Source: Enchytraeus crypticus (taxonomy: Eukaryota; Annelida; Clitellata; Enchytraeida; Enchytraeidae). Taken from it: a DNA stretch of 64,000 bases. The translations under genes were made by a program, and so were the position numbers. Under the pieces are notes generated by a model. That model saw only the letters and a program-made list of their open reading frames with translations, was not told where the DNA came from and ran no database searches. Location: contig CAJHZI010000510.1 in the NCBI GenBank assembly GCA_905160935.1, positions 331,501-395,500 on the forward strand, written 5' to 3'. Shown here piece by piece: positions 13,201 through 62,400 of the stretch (position 1 is its first letter; each line of letters opens with the position of its first letter).

Positions 13201-16200
13201 ATCAAGCATTCATACCAATCACTCAATTGTTCAATCAGTCTATTCATCAATATATTAATCAACAGCTAATAACTCAGTATGACAATGTTCTGAACAGTAT
13301 TAAGCAGTTTTATATCATGACTGGCGACACCTGTCAGCCCTTCTATCACTCAAGATCGGGATCAGCTCCGCACCCATGGGTTCAAAGCTACAAATCGTAC
13401 AAATATTACAAATCTCATAGTAGTAAATAATAATAAAGGTTTAACGTCCGTTTCCTCATACAAAGATGGTGTCAGGAATGCCGCCCATCACATGTCACCA
13501 CAAAGAGATTCACCCCAAACGATCTGAAAAAACATGTGCTGAAGAGAAAGAATACAAGGATAGCTACAAATCTTATGCCAAAAATATTTTGAAAAATATC
13601 AACATAAAAAGCTAACGTTAACGTCAGTTTCCTCACTCGAAATCGATGTCAGTGACGGGCGAGCCCAGGATTTGAACCCCGCACATACTGATCCGCGGTC
13701 GATTATCTTACCGACGTCGCCACTGGCTCCAGCCAGTAAAAATACAATAAAAAGTGATGTTGATTAACTCACCGACACCCTAAACTTTACTTCTGGGTTC
13801 AGATATTTCTTCTCCGCCGGATTAAACGTCCGTATCGCCGCCTTAACCTGTCTCGTACAGCAACAGTAATGTGCGTTTAATATTACACTGGACATACGCA
13901 CGTGTTAACAAAGGTGCGCTATCTGTAGTGAAGTTGATTGTGAGTGATAATGATAATACAATTAGTCCCCTTTGAATTCTTTACCTTTGGACTGGTTTTG
14001 GATAATGGATTTGCACCATTTATTTTAAGTTTCTTTTTTTGTTTGACTTAAGTTTCAAAGTGCTCGATGTTGTCTTTATCGACAGTTGTGTTCTAACAGT
14101 CACTGCTCTTTTTGTTGTCAATGTGCATTAAACTTTGTCCTCAACGTTTAGCATTCTTAAAAATAGAAAATGACATAAAATGTCATTAAAATTATCATAG
14201 AAAAAAGAAGTAGTGACATGGAATAGATGAAAACCTTGTTGTAGACGAGATCTATCTCAAGAAGTATGGCACCCTTCATTCTGGCCGTTAATTTACGATC
14301 TTTCAGCTGATACCAAACTTTCTGACCTTTCTTCACCTAGTCAGAAACAGTCAAACAAGCAGATAAGCAAAGCCAATAAACAATCAATCGTGTTATTGAT
14401 TGGAATATCGATCGACAAGACCATAGATTAAATTATCAAGTAATCAATCAATTACTCAGTCAGAAATTAACTTCTAACTTTCGAAATAAGTTCACTATGT
14501 TTCTTCCAAAGTGAAACTGTAACAATAGTATTAAAAAACGAAAGATAACGTTTATAACTTTTCTAATTTTATGTTGGACAGCACTACTATCATATTTTTA
14601 ATTTTATTAAAATTTTAAAATACGTGTAAAACATTTTATAGAGGAGTGACTAATAATAATATAGTATGGGACAAAGAGGAGTGGAGAAGGTCTTTTCGTA
14701 TCCAGACCCTAGTTAAACTGGGATTAAAGGGAAGCTGATGATTACGATGATGATGCTAAAAGTGTAAAGCATTTGAATAGCAGTTTTATTACTGCCAATT
14801 CCCAATAGATAAAATATATACTGAGCAATAAATAAAAGGCGACTAAGTCAGAAAAGAGAAAATCACCAGGATTATCTTACAACTGCTGTCATAATTATGC
14901 ACGTGTATTTCAAGGCTTACATTTGTATTAAGGTATATGCCAAAAGATATAGCATTTAAATAATATAACATATAAGTCATTTGTGTTAAAGTCATATAGT
15001 TAATTAAGATAATAGAATGCAGTTAACTTCTAAAAGCTGGTTATAGTTAGTTGTCATAATAAGTCGAACATCGTAGAGAGAGATTGAGATAGACAGCAGC
15101 ATAGGAGAAGAATGGGAGAAACAAAAAGAAAGAAAAAGAATTATAGACGAAGAGAAATATGGACAGAGAGAGAGAGAGAGCGAGAGAGAGATAGAGAGAG
15201 AAAGAGATAAAAAGCACTGATTAGTCAAGTAACCCTACATACCCTCAGCAGTGGTATAGCGACTTTACCCAGAAAGTCAAATTTCTTATCCCGATCTTCA
15301 TCGAATACTGACACCTCAAGGACAGAGTGGATGTCCTTGATAGTGCTGCGGTGTACCACACAAACGCTGCTAATTTAACACTGACACCTTGACAGTGCTG
15401 CGGTGTAGCACCCAAACACTCACTCATTTAAACACAAGAAATAGTTTAGAAACAAAACAATGATCACCAGTCAATGGTCATATGAGTAAATTGCAATTTA
15501 TAAGTTTTCTTTTTCTAGGACTATATTTGAAATATATGGACTTTATGAAATTTCTGTATTTAATGTGAAACTTTGCGCCACATAAAATGTGAGGCATTGC
15601 GCCACATACAATGTAAAGCATTGCGCCACATGCAGTGTGAAACATTGCCACATACAATGTGAAGCATTGTGTCACAGACAATGTGAAAGTTTTGAACATA
15701 CAATGTGAGACATTGCGCCGCACACAATGTGAAACTATGCGCCACATACAATGTGAAACATTGCGCCACATACAAAGTGAAACATTGCGTCACATACAAT
15801 GTGAAAGTTTTGAACATACAATGTGAAACATTGCGCCACTTAAAATGTAAAGCATTGCGACACATACAATGTTAAACATTGCGTCACATACAATGTGAAA
15901 CATTGCATTACATACAATGTGAAAGTTTTGTCCCAGCGCGGCGCCAGTGTCTTGTACTCGGTGTGTGTCTGCAGACGCTGATTGCAAAGCTCCAGCACAC
16001 AGAATGGGTCGCTCTTACCCCCAACATCAGCTGCTGAAAGACCTTGCGCTCTAATCACTAGATCAATCAATCAATCAATCGATCAATCAGTCAATCAATC
16101 ATCAATCAATCAATCAATCAATAAATCAATAAATCAATCAATATATCAATCAATCAATCAATTAGTCAATCAATCAATCAAACAATCGATCAGTCAGTCA

Positions 16201-59400: not shown

Positions 59401-62400
59401 CTGTTGTTGACATGTTGTTGTTGTTGTTCTTCTTCTCTACCATGTCTAATGTTGTTGTTGCTCTTCTCTACCATTCATTAATGTTGTTGTTGTTGCTCTT
59501 CTCTACCATGTACTAATGTTGTTGTTGTTGATCTTCTCTACCATGTACTAATGTTGTTGTTGTTGCTCTTATCTATCATTTCTACTATTGTTGTTGTCAC
59601 CCTTCTCTCTATCAGTTCTATTGTTTGTCCTTTCTATTAGGTCTAATATTAGTTTTAATGTTAATATTCTTTTTTATAATATTAATATTTCTTATTCTTT
59701 TTTATAATTTGTACTATGGTGACAAGCGTTTCCTGTAGCAGATCCCAAATTGTGGAATGAACTTCCACAGTTTGTAAGACATTCTGATAAACCTGATACC
59801 TTTAAAAAGTCTTAAGACACATCTTTTTGCTAGATCATTCCATATAAATTCTGCTAACTGATAAATTTCTCAGATTGCGGTAGTTGGGCCACGTTACGTT
59901 GCGTGGCTTAAATATTGCAATCTGACTTAATTTTATACGTTACGTTACGTATGATAGTTATTTGATATTTTACTGATTTTTACTATGTGCATTTTATTGT
60001 ATATTGCTTGTTTTACTGTAACTGTTGTAAAGTACAGAGATGCCTTAGCATGATATACTCTATTAAACATTAAACTTTATTAGGTCCAGTGTAATTATAT
60101 TAGTTCTAGTATTAATGTTGTTTATTAGGTCCAATGTAATTATATTAGCTCTAGTATTAATGTTGTTTATTAGGTCCAATGTAATTATATTAGCTCTAGT
60201 ATTAATGTTGTTTATTAGGTCCAATGTAATTATATTAGTTCTAGTATTAATGTTGTTTATTAGGTCCAAAGTAATTATATTAGCTCTAGTATTAATGTTG
60301 TTTATTAGGTCTAATGAGCCCAATCAAGCATAAGCCGTTTAGAGAGGAACTCTTGTATGTGGATGGAGGCTTGCTGTGTAACTATCCCATACAGTGCTTT
60401 GATGGTAAGATCTACAAGTGTATATAGGCTTGATTTGTAACTATCCCATACAGTGCTTTGATGGTAAGATCTACTAGAATATATAGGCTTGATTTGTAAC
60501 TATCCCATAGAGTGCTTTGATGGTAAGATCTACTAGAATATATGGGCTTGCTGTGAAACTATCCCGTACGGGGCTTTGATGGTAAGATCTACTAGAATAT
60601 ATAGCTCATTTAATTTTCGCTGTCTGATTAAAAAAAAGCTAATGTCAGTTTCCTCACTCGAAAGCGATGGCGAGCCCGGGATTTGAACCCCGCACATATT
60701 GATCCGCGGTCGAGTTTCTTACCGACAACGCCCCTGGCTGCAGCCGTTGCTCTTAAAGGTGTAGCTCATTAAATACATTTCTCTAATCGCAAGACATGAA
60801 CGTAATCCTGATAACGTAATTTGTACTAAATTTACCCTATTTGTACTTTTTGTACTAGCTGTTTTGATAAACCAAAATTCTGCACTGAACATGATTTCTA
60901 TGATTCTACGAACTGGATGATGCGATATTGAGGAAGGCGATGGAGTATATCCGAGATGGAAATAATTTATTACTGAAGCGAATTGAAAAACGTTATTTTG
61001 AAAGACGTCATTTGCTAGATTTAAAATTGTTCAACATTGTAAAATTGTGTTTATAAATGAACTATAGGCTTATATCGACAGATTTATTGCAGAGATTTTG
61101 AGTTTTTTTACCAAAATTCTACACTGAAAATGATTTCTAGGACTTACTGGGCGATATTGAGGAAGGCAATTTGTGCTATAGAGAGTGACTTTAAATATTG
61201 ATTATTAATTATCAATTTTTCCGTTTTATGTAACGAATTTGTATAATGCCATTTATTTTACTTGGTATAGTTCATTAGAAAACATTGATCCTAGACATGC
61301 AAAATAAGAAATGAAAAAGTATTAGCACATAATTTATTTTTTCTTGTACAATTTCGCTAAAAATGATTAATTATTATTGATATTTCGGATCTTCACGAAG
61401 CTGCACTTGATTCTCGACCTTCTGAGTTCTGGGCGCATCTGTTGCAGCCTTTAGCAAGCTATGTGGCTTGATAGGACTATTTCTCCTGTGTTATAATTAG
61501 ATTCTAAGATTATATTTAAGAAAGGGCTGTGTGGAAGCTGGCGTTGACTGATTGATTGGTTGATTGATTGATTGACTGATTGATTGATTGATTGACTGAT
61601 TGATTGAGCATTAGATTGCATTAATTTTAACGTAGCATTTTGTGTGTTTTTGTCTCTTTGCCACATTCAGTGCACTGTTATAAAATTCGATGTGATTTAT
61701 TTGGCAGCATTCACTGAAATACGATATGACCTTATGTCATATCTGACTTTTTAAAATCTGCCAGTGCAAAACAAGCGTCTGTTACTCTGCTATGCATGCG
61801 AGCTTGATGTATAACAGCGCTAGTTTAACGACTTATACCGTGAAGACTGCCAGAGAGAACGCATTTCAATTTCTCTCAGTTCATAAAATTAAAACACTAG
61901 ATTTGCTAACTCTTTTTACAGAGATTAGCGGTTTTCCCCTATGTTTCTAAATATTAATGGGATATTTAATTCCAGCAAAATCTCCAATCCCTGAAGAAGA
62001 ATCCCAAAAAAGGTCGCAAGAATTACAAAAAATTACAAAAATGGCAAAAATTAGAAAAAATATAAATAATAATAAATTACATTATAAATATACATTACAC
62101 TGCATACATTACCTTAGAAATAATAAAAAAAACTACAGAGAACATCGTCTTTGATTGTATGGGGGACGGCGCTTTTTCGGCTATGTTAATATTGTGCTAT
62201 AGGGAGGTTGCCATTGATTGAGCTGCTATGAAAACCTTTGATTGATTCATTCTCTAAATATACTTGAATAAAAGTAAAAATTTGAGCCATTGATTTTGTA
62301 ATTTATTATCGAATTGATTGATTCATTTTTATTGTATTATCAATCGATCGATTAATCGATCGCTTACTTGATTGAATAGTAATAAATGAATTTTACGCTT

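Follow-up and report, generated by a model that had tools for sequence, protein, structure and literature searches.

Tandem duplications across splice sites in the annelid Enchytraeus crypticus resemble the mirage minisatellites of amphioxus

Exon edges in the enchytraeid worm Enchytraeus crypticus frequently lie inside short tandem duplications. In the genes sampled here, about one quarter of acceptors and one tenth of donors sit within a repeat unit that crosses the exon border. These genes include three from a window of 64,000 nucleotides (contig CAJHZI010000510.1 of assembly GCA_905160935.1, positions 331,501 to 395,500 of the forward strand; GC content 35.9%), namely CLPX, a gene that we take to be MCTP, and a patatin-like gene. 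The explanation that we favor, with a probability of roughly 70%, is that the repeats are minisatellites of the type called mirages: short tandem duplications near intron ends, present in 2 to ∼12 copies, in which the unit happens to span the exon edge and the upstream decoy splice sites are ignored. The phenomenon itself has already been published, for amphioxus. What is new here is the phylum, the measured frequency, the bias toward acceptors, and the effect that decoys would have on the reading frame.

Splice borders in the three window genes were placed by hand (n = 48, plus the CLPX stop codon). A border was scored as matching when a 30-mer spanning it, with at least 10 nt on either side, had an ungapped copy of at least 24/30 within 1 kb; simple repeats were masked and the best local copy was scored. 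The 11 exons of CLPX join into a frame that stays open from ATG to TAG and contains the Pfam domains AAA_2 and ClpB_D2-small, while the MCTP part M2–M7 contains two C2 stretches and the patatin-like gene contains Patatin. The placements of the MCTP M7 donor and of the M8, M1, and M2 acceptors are uncertain, and none of these is among the sites named in the original prediction. Local copies match at 8 of 23 window acceptors (CLPX E3, E6, E7, and E9; MCTP M9; patatin P3, P4, and P5), at 5 of 25 donors (CLPX E7 and E8; MCTP M0 and M8; patatin P5), and at the stop codon border of CLPX. The original prediction had listed 13 edges with copies across a splice site or stop, together with a weaker case at the CLPX exon 9 donor. 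All 13 are recovered in the 30-mer test, with our CLPX E3, E6, E7, and E9 equated with its exons 4, 7, 8, and 10, and the weaker case (our E8 donor) matches at exactly 24/30. It had also placed the copies within introns or, for the stop codon, on its 3′ side, where we find them, and had noted further arrays without exon sequence in the same introns; such arrays are likewise present (e.g., at 33339–33574, 34605–35037, and 37676–38222). Two placements are corrected: patatin P3 starts at 57247 and its array includes ∼21 nt of exon, and P4 starts at 58776 with ∼32 nt of exon in its array. When the same probes were compared with the reversed neighborhood, in the window and the independent sample together, none of 103 acceptors, 112 donors, or the one stop matched (0/216), which rules out chance similarity as the source of the copies.

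The independent sample was picked without regard to repeats and consists of Cpn60_TCP1 and dynein DHC_N2 matches across the assembly (524.2 Mb, 802 contigs). Among 139 genome match rows (57 for Cpn60_TCP1 and 82 for DHC_N2), 98 exon matches in 24 genes were used; the other 41 were single-exon matches or lacked fetched flanks. Borders were predicted by a splice-site and codon model trained on the same exons, which puts 47 of 55 pairs of adjacent exons in phase. After a phase or score filter, 167 of 196 exon edges were kept (80 acceptors and 87 donors). Together with the window genes, the sampling thus covers 27 genes and is not a whole-genome census. Crossing copies occur at 21 of the 80 sampled acceptors, 17 of them at 26/30 or better, and at 6 of the 87 donors. 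Swapping the acceptor and donor labels gene by gene, so that clustering within genes is respected, gives P = 0.0005 for this excess. The window and sample combined contain copies at 29/103 acceptors versus 11/112 donors (P = 0.0004), or 40 of 215 borders overall; in the three window genes alone the difference has P = 0.25. The asymmetry in crossing is strong, and the original prediction did not foresee it. Its proposal of a genome-wide process holds as far as we sampled, with at least one case in 16 of the 24 independent genes. At three sampled acceptors (on C199, C440, and C294) the exon start as predicted probably takes in copies of the array; these sites are kept in the rates above and omitted from the frame test described below.

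The units have a consistent anatomy. The 25 acceptors with a clear nearest copy have a median unit of 76 bp, of which a median of 36 nt is exon; without the three doubtful exon starts these medians are 81.5 bp and 34 nt (range 11–79, n = 22). An acceptor unit of ∼80 bp is made of ∼35 nt of exon, the AG, and a low-complexity intron end, often a T/G-rich stretch that ends in AG. One such unit of 67 bp joins 52 nt of exon to a 15-nt intron end and is 50/52 identical to its copy; another of 73 bp takes in 47 nt of exon, 45 of them identical. Donor units have a median of 107 bp with 16 nt of exon (n = 9). Copies lie on the intron side in 72 of 78 instances at acceptors and in 33 of 34 at donors. 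The AG is kept in 57 of 72 intron-side acceptor copies, and the GT in 26 of 33 donor copies. A few borders have single copies 169–482 bp away, and 6 of the 40 matching borders have no near copy by the anatomy probe. The window sites are collected in Table 1.

Table 1. Duplicated exon borders in the window, with positions counted from its first nucleotide.
Site	Position (strand)	Border	Copies or unit	Exon sequence included and remarks
CLPX E3 (exon 4) acceptor duplication	40556..40720 (-)	exon start 40596	copy 63 bp upstream	41 nt; AG of the copy lost
CLPX E6 (exon 7) acceptor	38253..38530 (-)	exon start 38314	copy 112 bp upstream	62 nt; more degraded copies beyond, by eye
CLPX E7 (exon 8) acceptor array	36790..37391 (-)	exon start 36825	copies at 102, 351, 475, and 541 bp	36 nt; CA-rich spacers
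CLPX E7 donor array	36113..36673 (-)	intron start 36660	∼10 units of 56 bp	13 nt
CLPX E8 (exon 9) donor	35231..35350 (-)	intron start 35338	single copy 107 bp downstream	weak, 24/30
CLPX E9 (exon 10) acceptor	34090..34320 (-)	exon start 34109	copies at 67 and 196 bp	
CLPX stop array	32694..33149 (-)		79-bp unit, 5.8 copies, 98% matches	TAG and preceding codons in unit
MCTP M0 (exon 1) donor	25600..26125 (-)	intron start 26103	single copy 482 bp downstream (25621)	
MCTP M8 (C2C exon) donor array	15562..15924 (-)	intron start 15915	24-bp units, ∼15 copies	
MCTP M9 acceptor	15325..15425 (-)	exon start 15345	copy 52 bp upstream	27/30
Patatin-like P3 acceptor	57040..57290 (+)	exon start 57247	copies 52, 95, 146, and 189 bp upstream	21 nt in the nearest copy
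Patatin-like P4 acceptor	58430..58815 (+)	exon start 58776	copies 84, 172, 256, and 336 bp upstream	∼32 nt; AG kept in 1 of 4
Patatin-like P5 acceptor array	60080..60330 (+)	exon start 60309		∼8 nt in unit, by eye
Patatin-like P5 donor	60366..60600 (+)	intron start 60405	copies 59, 118, and 177 bp downstream	38 nt

Arrays are not confined to exon edges. Local duplication is common throughout introns, and its density rises two- to threefold toward their ends. We measured mean array coverage in the 36 introns of at least 700 nt (18 genes), with P values from gene-level sign flips. Coverage is 15% in mid-intron, 45% at 25–120 nt from the acceptor (P = 0.015 versus mid-intron), and 34% at 25–120 nt from the donor (P = 0.004). 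Positions far from exons are thus less array-rich than those near either end. At the junctions themselves coverage is 31% for acceptors and 11% for donors (P = 0.13 for the difference in this subset), and just inside the exon it is 25% at acceptors and 0% at donors. The bias toward borders put forward in the original prediction therefore survives as a bias toward intron ends; the acceptor junction falls below its neighboring intron and the donor junction does not exceed mid-intron, so a mechanism aimed at the border itself, with seeding exactly there, is not required. Masking the repeats recurrent within the sample, 12% of bases, alters the gradient little. Neighboring transposons were considered as its source and set aside on this ground, although low-copy elements could contribute. 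In the sample alone, with repeats masked (23 long introns), the near-donor excess has P = 0.002 and the acceptor-junction excess P = 0.38.

The ends of introns also have a characteristic composition. The T+G fraction of the last 40 nt is 0.68 at mirage acceptors and 0.63 at others, against 0.55 near position −300, and simple tracts occupy 13% at −40 to −20 of acceptors versus 2% at the mirrored donor place (the simple-tract percentages, like the rates for 68 introns given below, used earlier placements of the patatin P3 and P4 acceptors). TGTGT is commoner at mirage acceptors than at other acceptors (11.0 versus 3.5 per kb). TTGAT, which fits a loose branch-point consensus, reaches 15.3 per kb between −60 and −10 of acceptors, compared with 4.8 further upstream and 3.6 after donors; its reverse complement shows no rise at acceptors in the sampled and window introns. 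As a separate observation, sense-strand TTGAT and TGATTG are enriched three- to fourfold over this same interval at intron 3′ ends, as though a microsatellite had formed from branch-point motifs. The TTGA tract was tried as a seed of the arrays and rejected, mirage and other acceptors being alike in this respect.

We conjecture that mirage-type minisatellites arise and persist as follows. Ordinary replication slippage or template switching would produce the first duplication, and unequal exchange would then lengthen the array. Arrays could persist if the spliceosome takes the copy joined to a whole exon and a downstream donor, as in exon definition, and the upstream decoys, being ignored, would drift. 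Both intron ends are enriched in arrays; the difference between acceptors and donors lies in crossing into the exon. Duplications that cross a donor are probably tolerated less well than those that cross an acceptor, since the donor-side intron is array-rich but donor junctions are not. Alternatively, duplications may start in different places at the two ends; the data do not choose between the two.

Several results weigh against our explanation or blur it. Array coverage at the acceptor junction does not differ significantly from mid-intron (P = 0.10), and in the masked sample the near-acceptor excess reaches only P = 0.085. There, coverage near donors (40%) and near acceptors (35%) is equally rich, which leaves unproven that the 3′ end of the intron has any particular part in initiating arrays. 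Simple tracts at −120 to −60 are scarcer at mirage acceptors, and TTGAT is not enriched at them (13.8 per kb versus 16.2 at other acceptors). Microhomology at the breakpoints is obscured, as the tracts diverge too fast. Finally, AG-keeping decoys have a mean site score of 5.34, similar to real acceptors at mirages (5.54) and elsewhere (5.32), but decoys were found by their likeness to the real site, so this similarity is partly built in.

The most serious competitor, which we nonetheless consider unlikely, holds that there is no border effect at all: arrays would be uniform over introns and would cross nearby exons by chance until selection stops them. The interior of introns is indeed already rich: over 68 introns, tandem arrays cover 20% of the positions that lie further than 150 nt from each end (14.5% in the sample alone). 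Acceptor junctions fall in arrays in 18 of the 68 introns, not clearly above this interior rate (bootstrap P = 0.11), and donor junctions in 6 of 68, below the 20% rate (bootstrap P = 0.009). Against a uniform distribution, the same long introns are two to three times richer near both ends, at the gene-level P values given above.

An origin tied to transcription or splicing, for example through R-loops or RNA-templated repair at 3′ splice sites, appears less probable still. It would account for the preference of boundary copies for acceptors and for the strand-specific T/G-rich stretch at intron 3′ ends; however, the array at the CLPX stop codon and the many intron-internal arrays need no splice site, and the intron next to donors is array-rich too.

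The fate of the decoys bears on whether selection maintains the copies as spare or decoy splice sites, as the original prediction had suggested, or as alternative starts of exons. Most decoys keep an AG and score like real sites, as such selection would have it. Yet the AG is no better kept than its surroundings: the mismatch rate is 0.07 at the A and 0.17 at the G of decoys versus a mean of 0.12 at other positions, around the average and thus as expected of drifting copies. We then considered the 22 matching acceptors available for a frame test (18 sampled and 4 from CLPX), of which 17 have AG-keeping decoys. Use of the 42 decoys at these 17 borders would shift the frame in 28 cases and insert a stop in 37, with at least one of the two in all 42. 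A random insert would mostly break the frame likewise, so this result argues against usefulness and not for purging. The decoys have not decayed faster than the sequence around them and would be of no use as spares, and we regard selection for them as very improbable. Since the decoys would break the protein, the copy attached to the complete exon would have to be the one that splicing chooses, unless many faulty transcripts are removed by nonsense-mediated decay; from the sequence, splicing presumably ignores the decoys. Least credible of all is an assembly artifact, in which a MaSuRCA hybrid assembly would have collapsed haplotypes or concatenated them: the published assembly is described as a hybrid of Illumina and PacBio reads (PMC8460440), but the copies differ by several substitutions (45/47, 50/52, and 74/79 identical) and the cases are spread over 16 of 24 sampled genes and skewed to acceptors.

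The name mirages was introduced for boundary-spanning tandem repeats of the amphioxus gene Adh3 (Canestro and others 2002, cited in PMC3087553). The amphioxus globins BflGb6 and BflGb9 also have them (PMC3087553), as does troponin C, with similar repeats in PGBD5 (PMC3902484). For amphioxus, Adh3 data and reverse transcription PCR of globins are reported to suggest undisturbed splicing, and a route to intron gain has been proposed (PMC3087553). Judged by organization, the worm arrays are structurally mirage minisatellites. In both animals, according to the amphioxus descriptions, the unit spans the exon–intron boundary, extra copies lie on the intron side, both boundary types are affected, and AG or GT is often kept (PMC3087553). 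Unit lengths are minisatellite-like in each, with the worm medians given above and 10–72 bp in Adh3 or ∼150–160 bp in the globins of amphioxus (PMC3087553). The host differs, being an annelid and not a cephalochordate, so the range is different where the structure agrees. The worm cases are counted over 27 genes, with an acceptor bias and a decoy-frame test, whereas instability and undisturbed splicing are reported for amphioxus (PMC3087553).

Other systems are less close. Metallothionein introns of an earthworm, likewise a clitellate annelid with intronic repeats and exon duplication, carry minisatellites of ∼180 bp, and duplications of exon 4 are missing from the final transcript; the description as available to us includes no repeat unit across a splice site, and one of the exon 4 copies has the inverted orientation (PMC12783039). 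The Rogers model, in which introns are gained when AG/GT proto-splice sites are duplicated (cited in PMC3087553), resembles the worm case in that the duplication carries splice signals, but in the worm existing introns hold the copies and no new intron is shown. An abalone paper was set aside as a parallel, as it describes an intronic minisatellite and, in the portion available, none on a splice site (PMC6905558). We recognized no report of boundary-spanning arrays in annelids in the Creative Commons-licensed literature, within a search that included few queries aimed at annelids or lophotrochozoans and had subscription papers outside its scope.

The window and sample contain other features of note. 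Window positions 5797–7103 hold 29 copies of a 45-bp unit (99% matches), probably a minisatellite of recent origin. An open frame at 16850–17836 (-) has a shorter copy of its end at 43141–43650 (-); by eye, both look like the reverse transcriptase of a long interspersed element, which we presume them to be. A tRNA-like short interspersed element sequence recurs in the window, again by eye. Among the sampled families, one DHC_N2 match (L047 on C178) lies within an open frame of 1177 aa, and 15 contigs have several dynein exon matches each. Long open chaperonin-like frames occur at L035 and L036 (C259 and C400) and at L017 (C373), two of them scoring identically on two contigs. These uninterrupted dynein and chaperonin-like frames may be retrogenes, contamination, or duplicated contigs. 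Five partial nuclear COX1 matches (L010–L014), four of them with an in-frame TAA or TAG, are likely mitochondrial insertions. On the mitochondrial contig itself (C802) the genes, read by eye, lie on one strand in the order known from Lumbricus; the published E. crypticus mitochondrial genome is described as sharing the gene order of Lumbricus terrestris except for the position of one non-coding segment (PMC8460440).

Mirages, so far a curiosity of lancelets, are extended by these results to a protostome genome, in which they are present at about one acceptor in four of the sampled genes. They can mislead gene prediction and the mapping of RNA-seq reads, because spliced aligners may create false junctions between repeated sequences (EASTR, PMC10632439). 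They also supply a substrate on the spot from which introns could grow or be gained, and they offer many natural tests, at scale and in a laboratory worm, of how the spliceosome chooses among near-identical acceptors. A bolder proposal, which we put forward tentatively and think doubtful as a whole, is that about a quarter of all 3′ splice sites stand behind their own decoys, which mostly retain the AG and carry the same tract and as much as ∼80 nt of the same exon, with the spliceosome taking only the last copy, and that duplication favors intron ends through how these are transcribed or spliced. If acceptors do lie behind ignored decoys on this scale, the genome would hold thousands of natural cis-competition experiments for exon definition.

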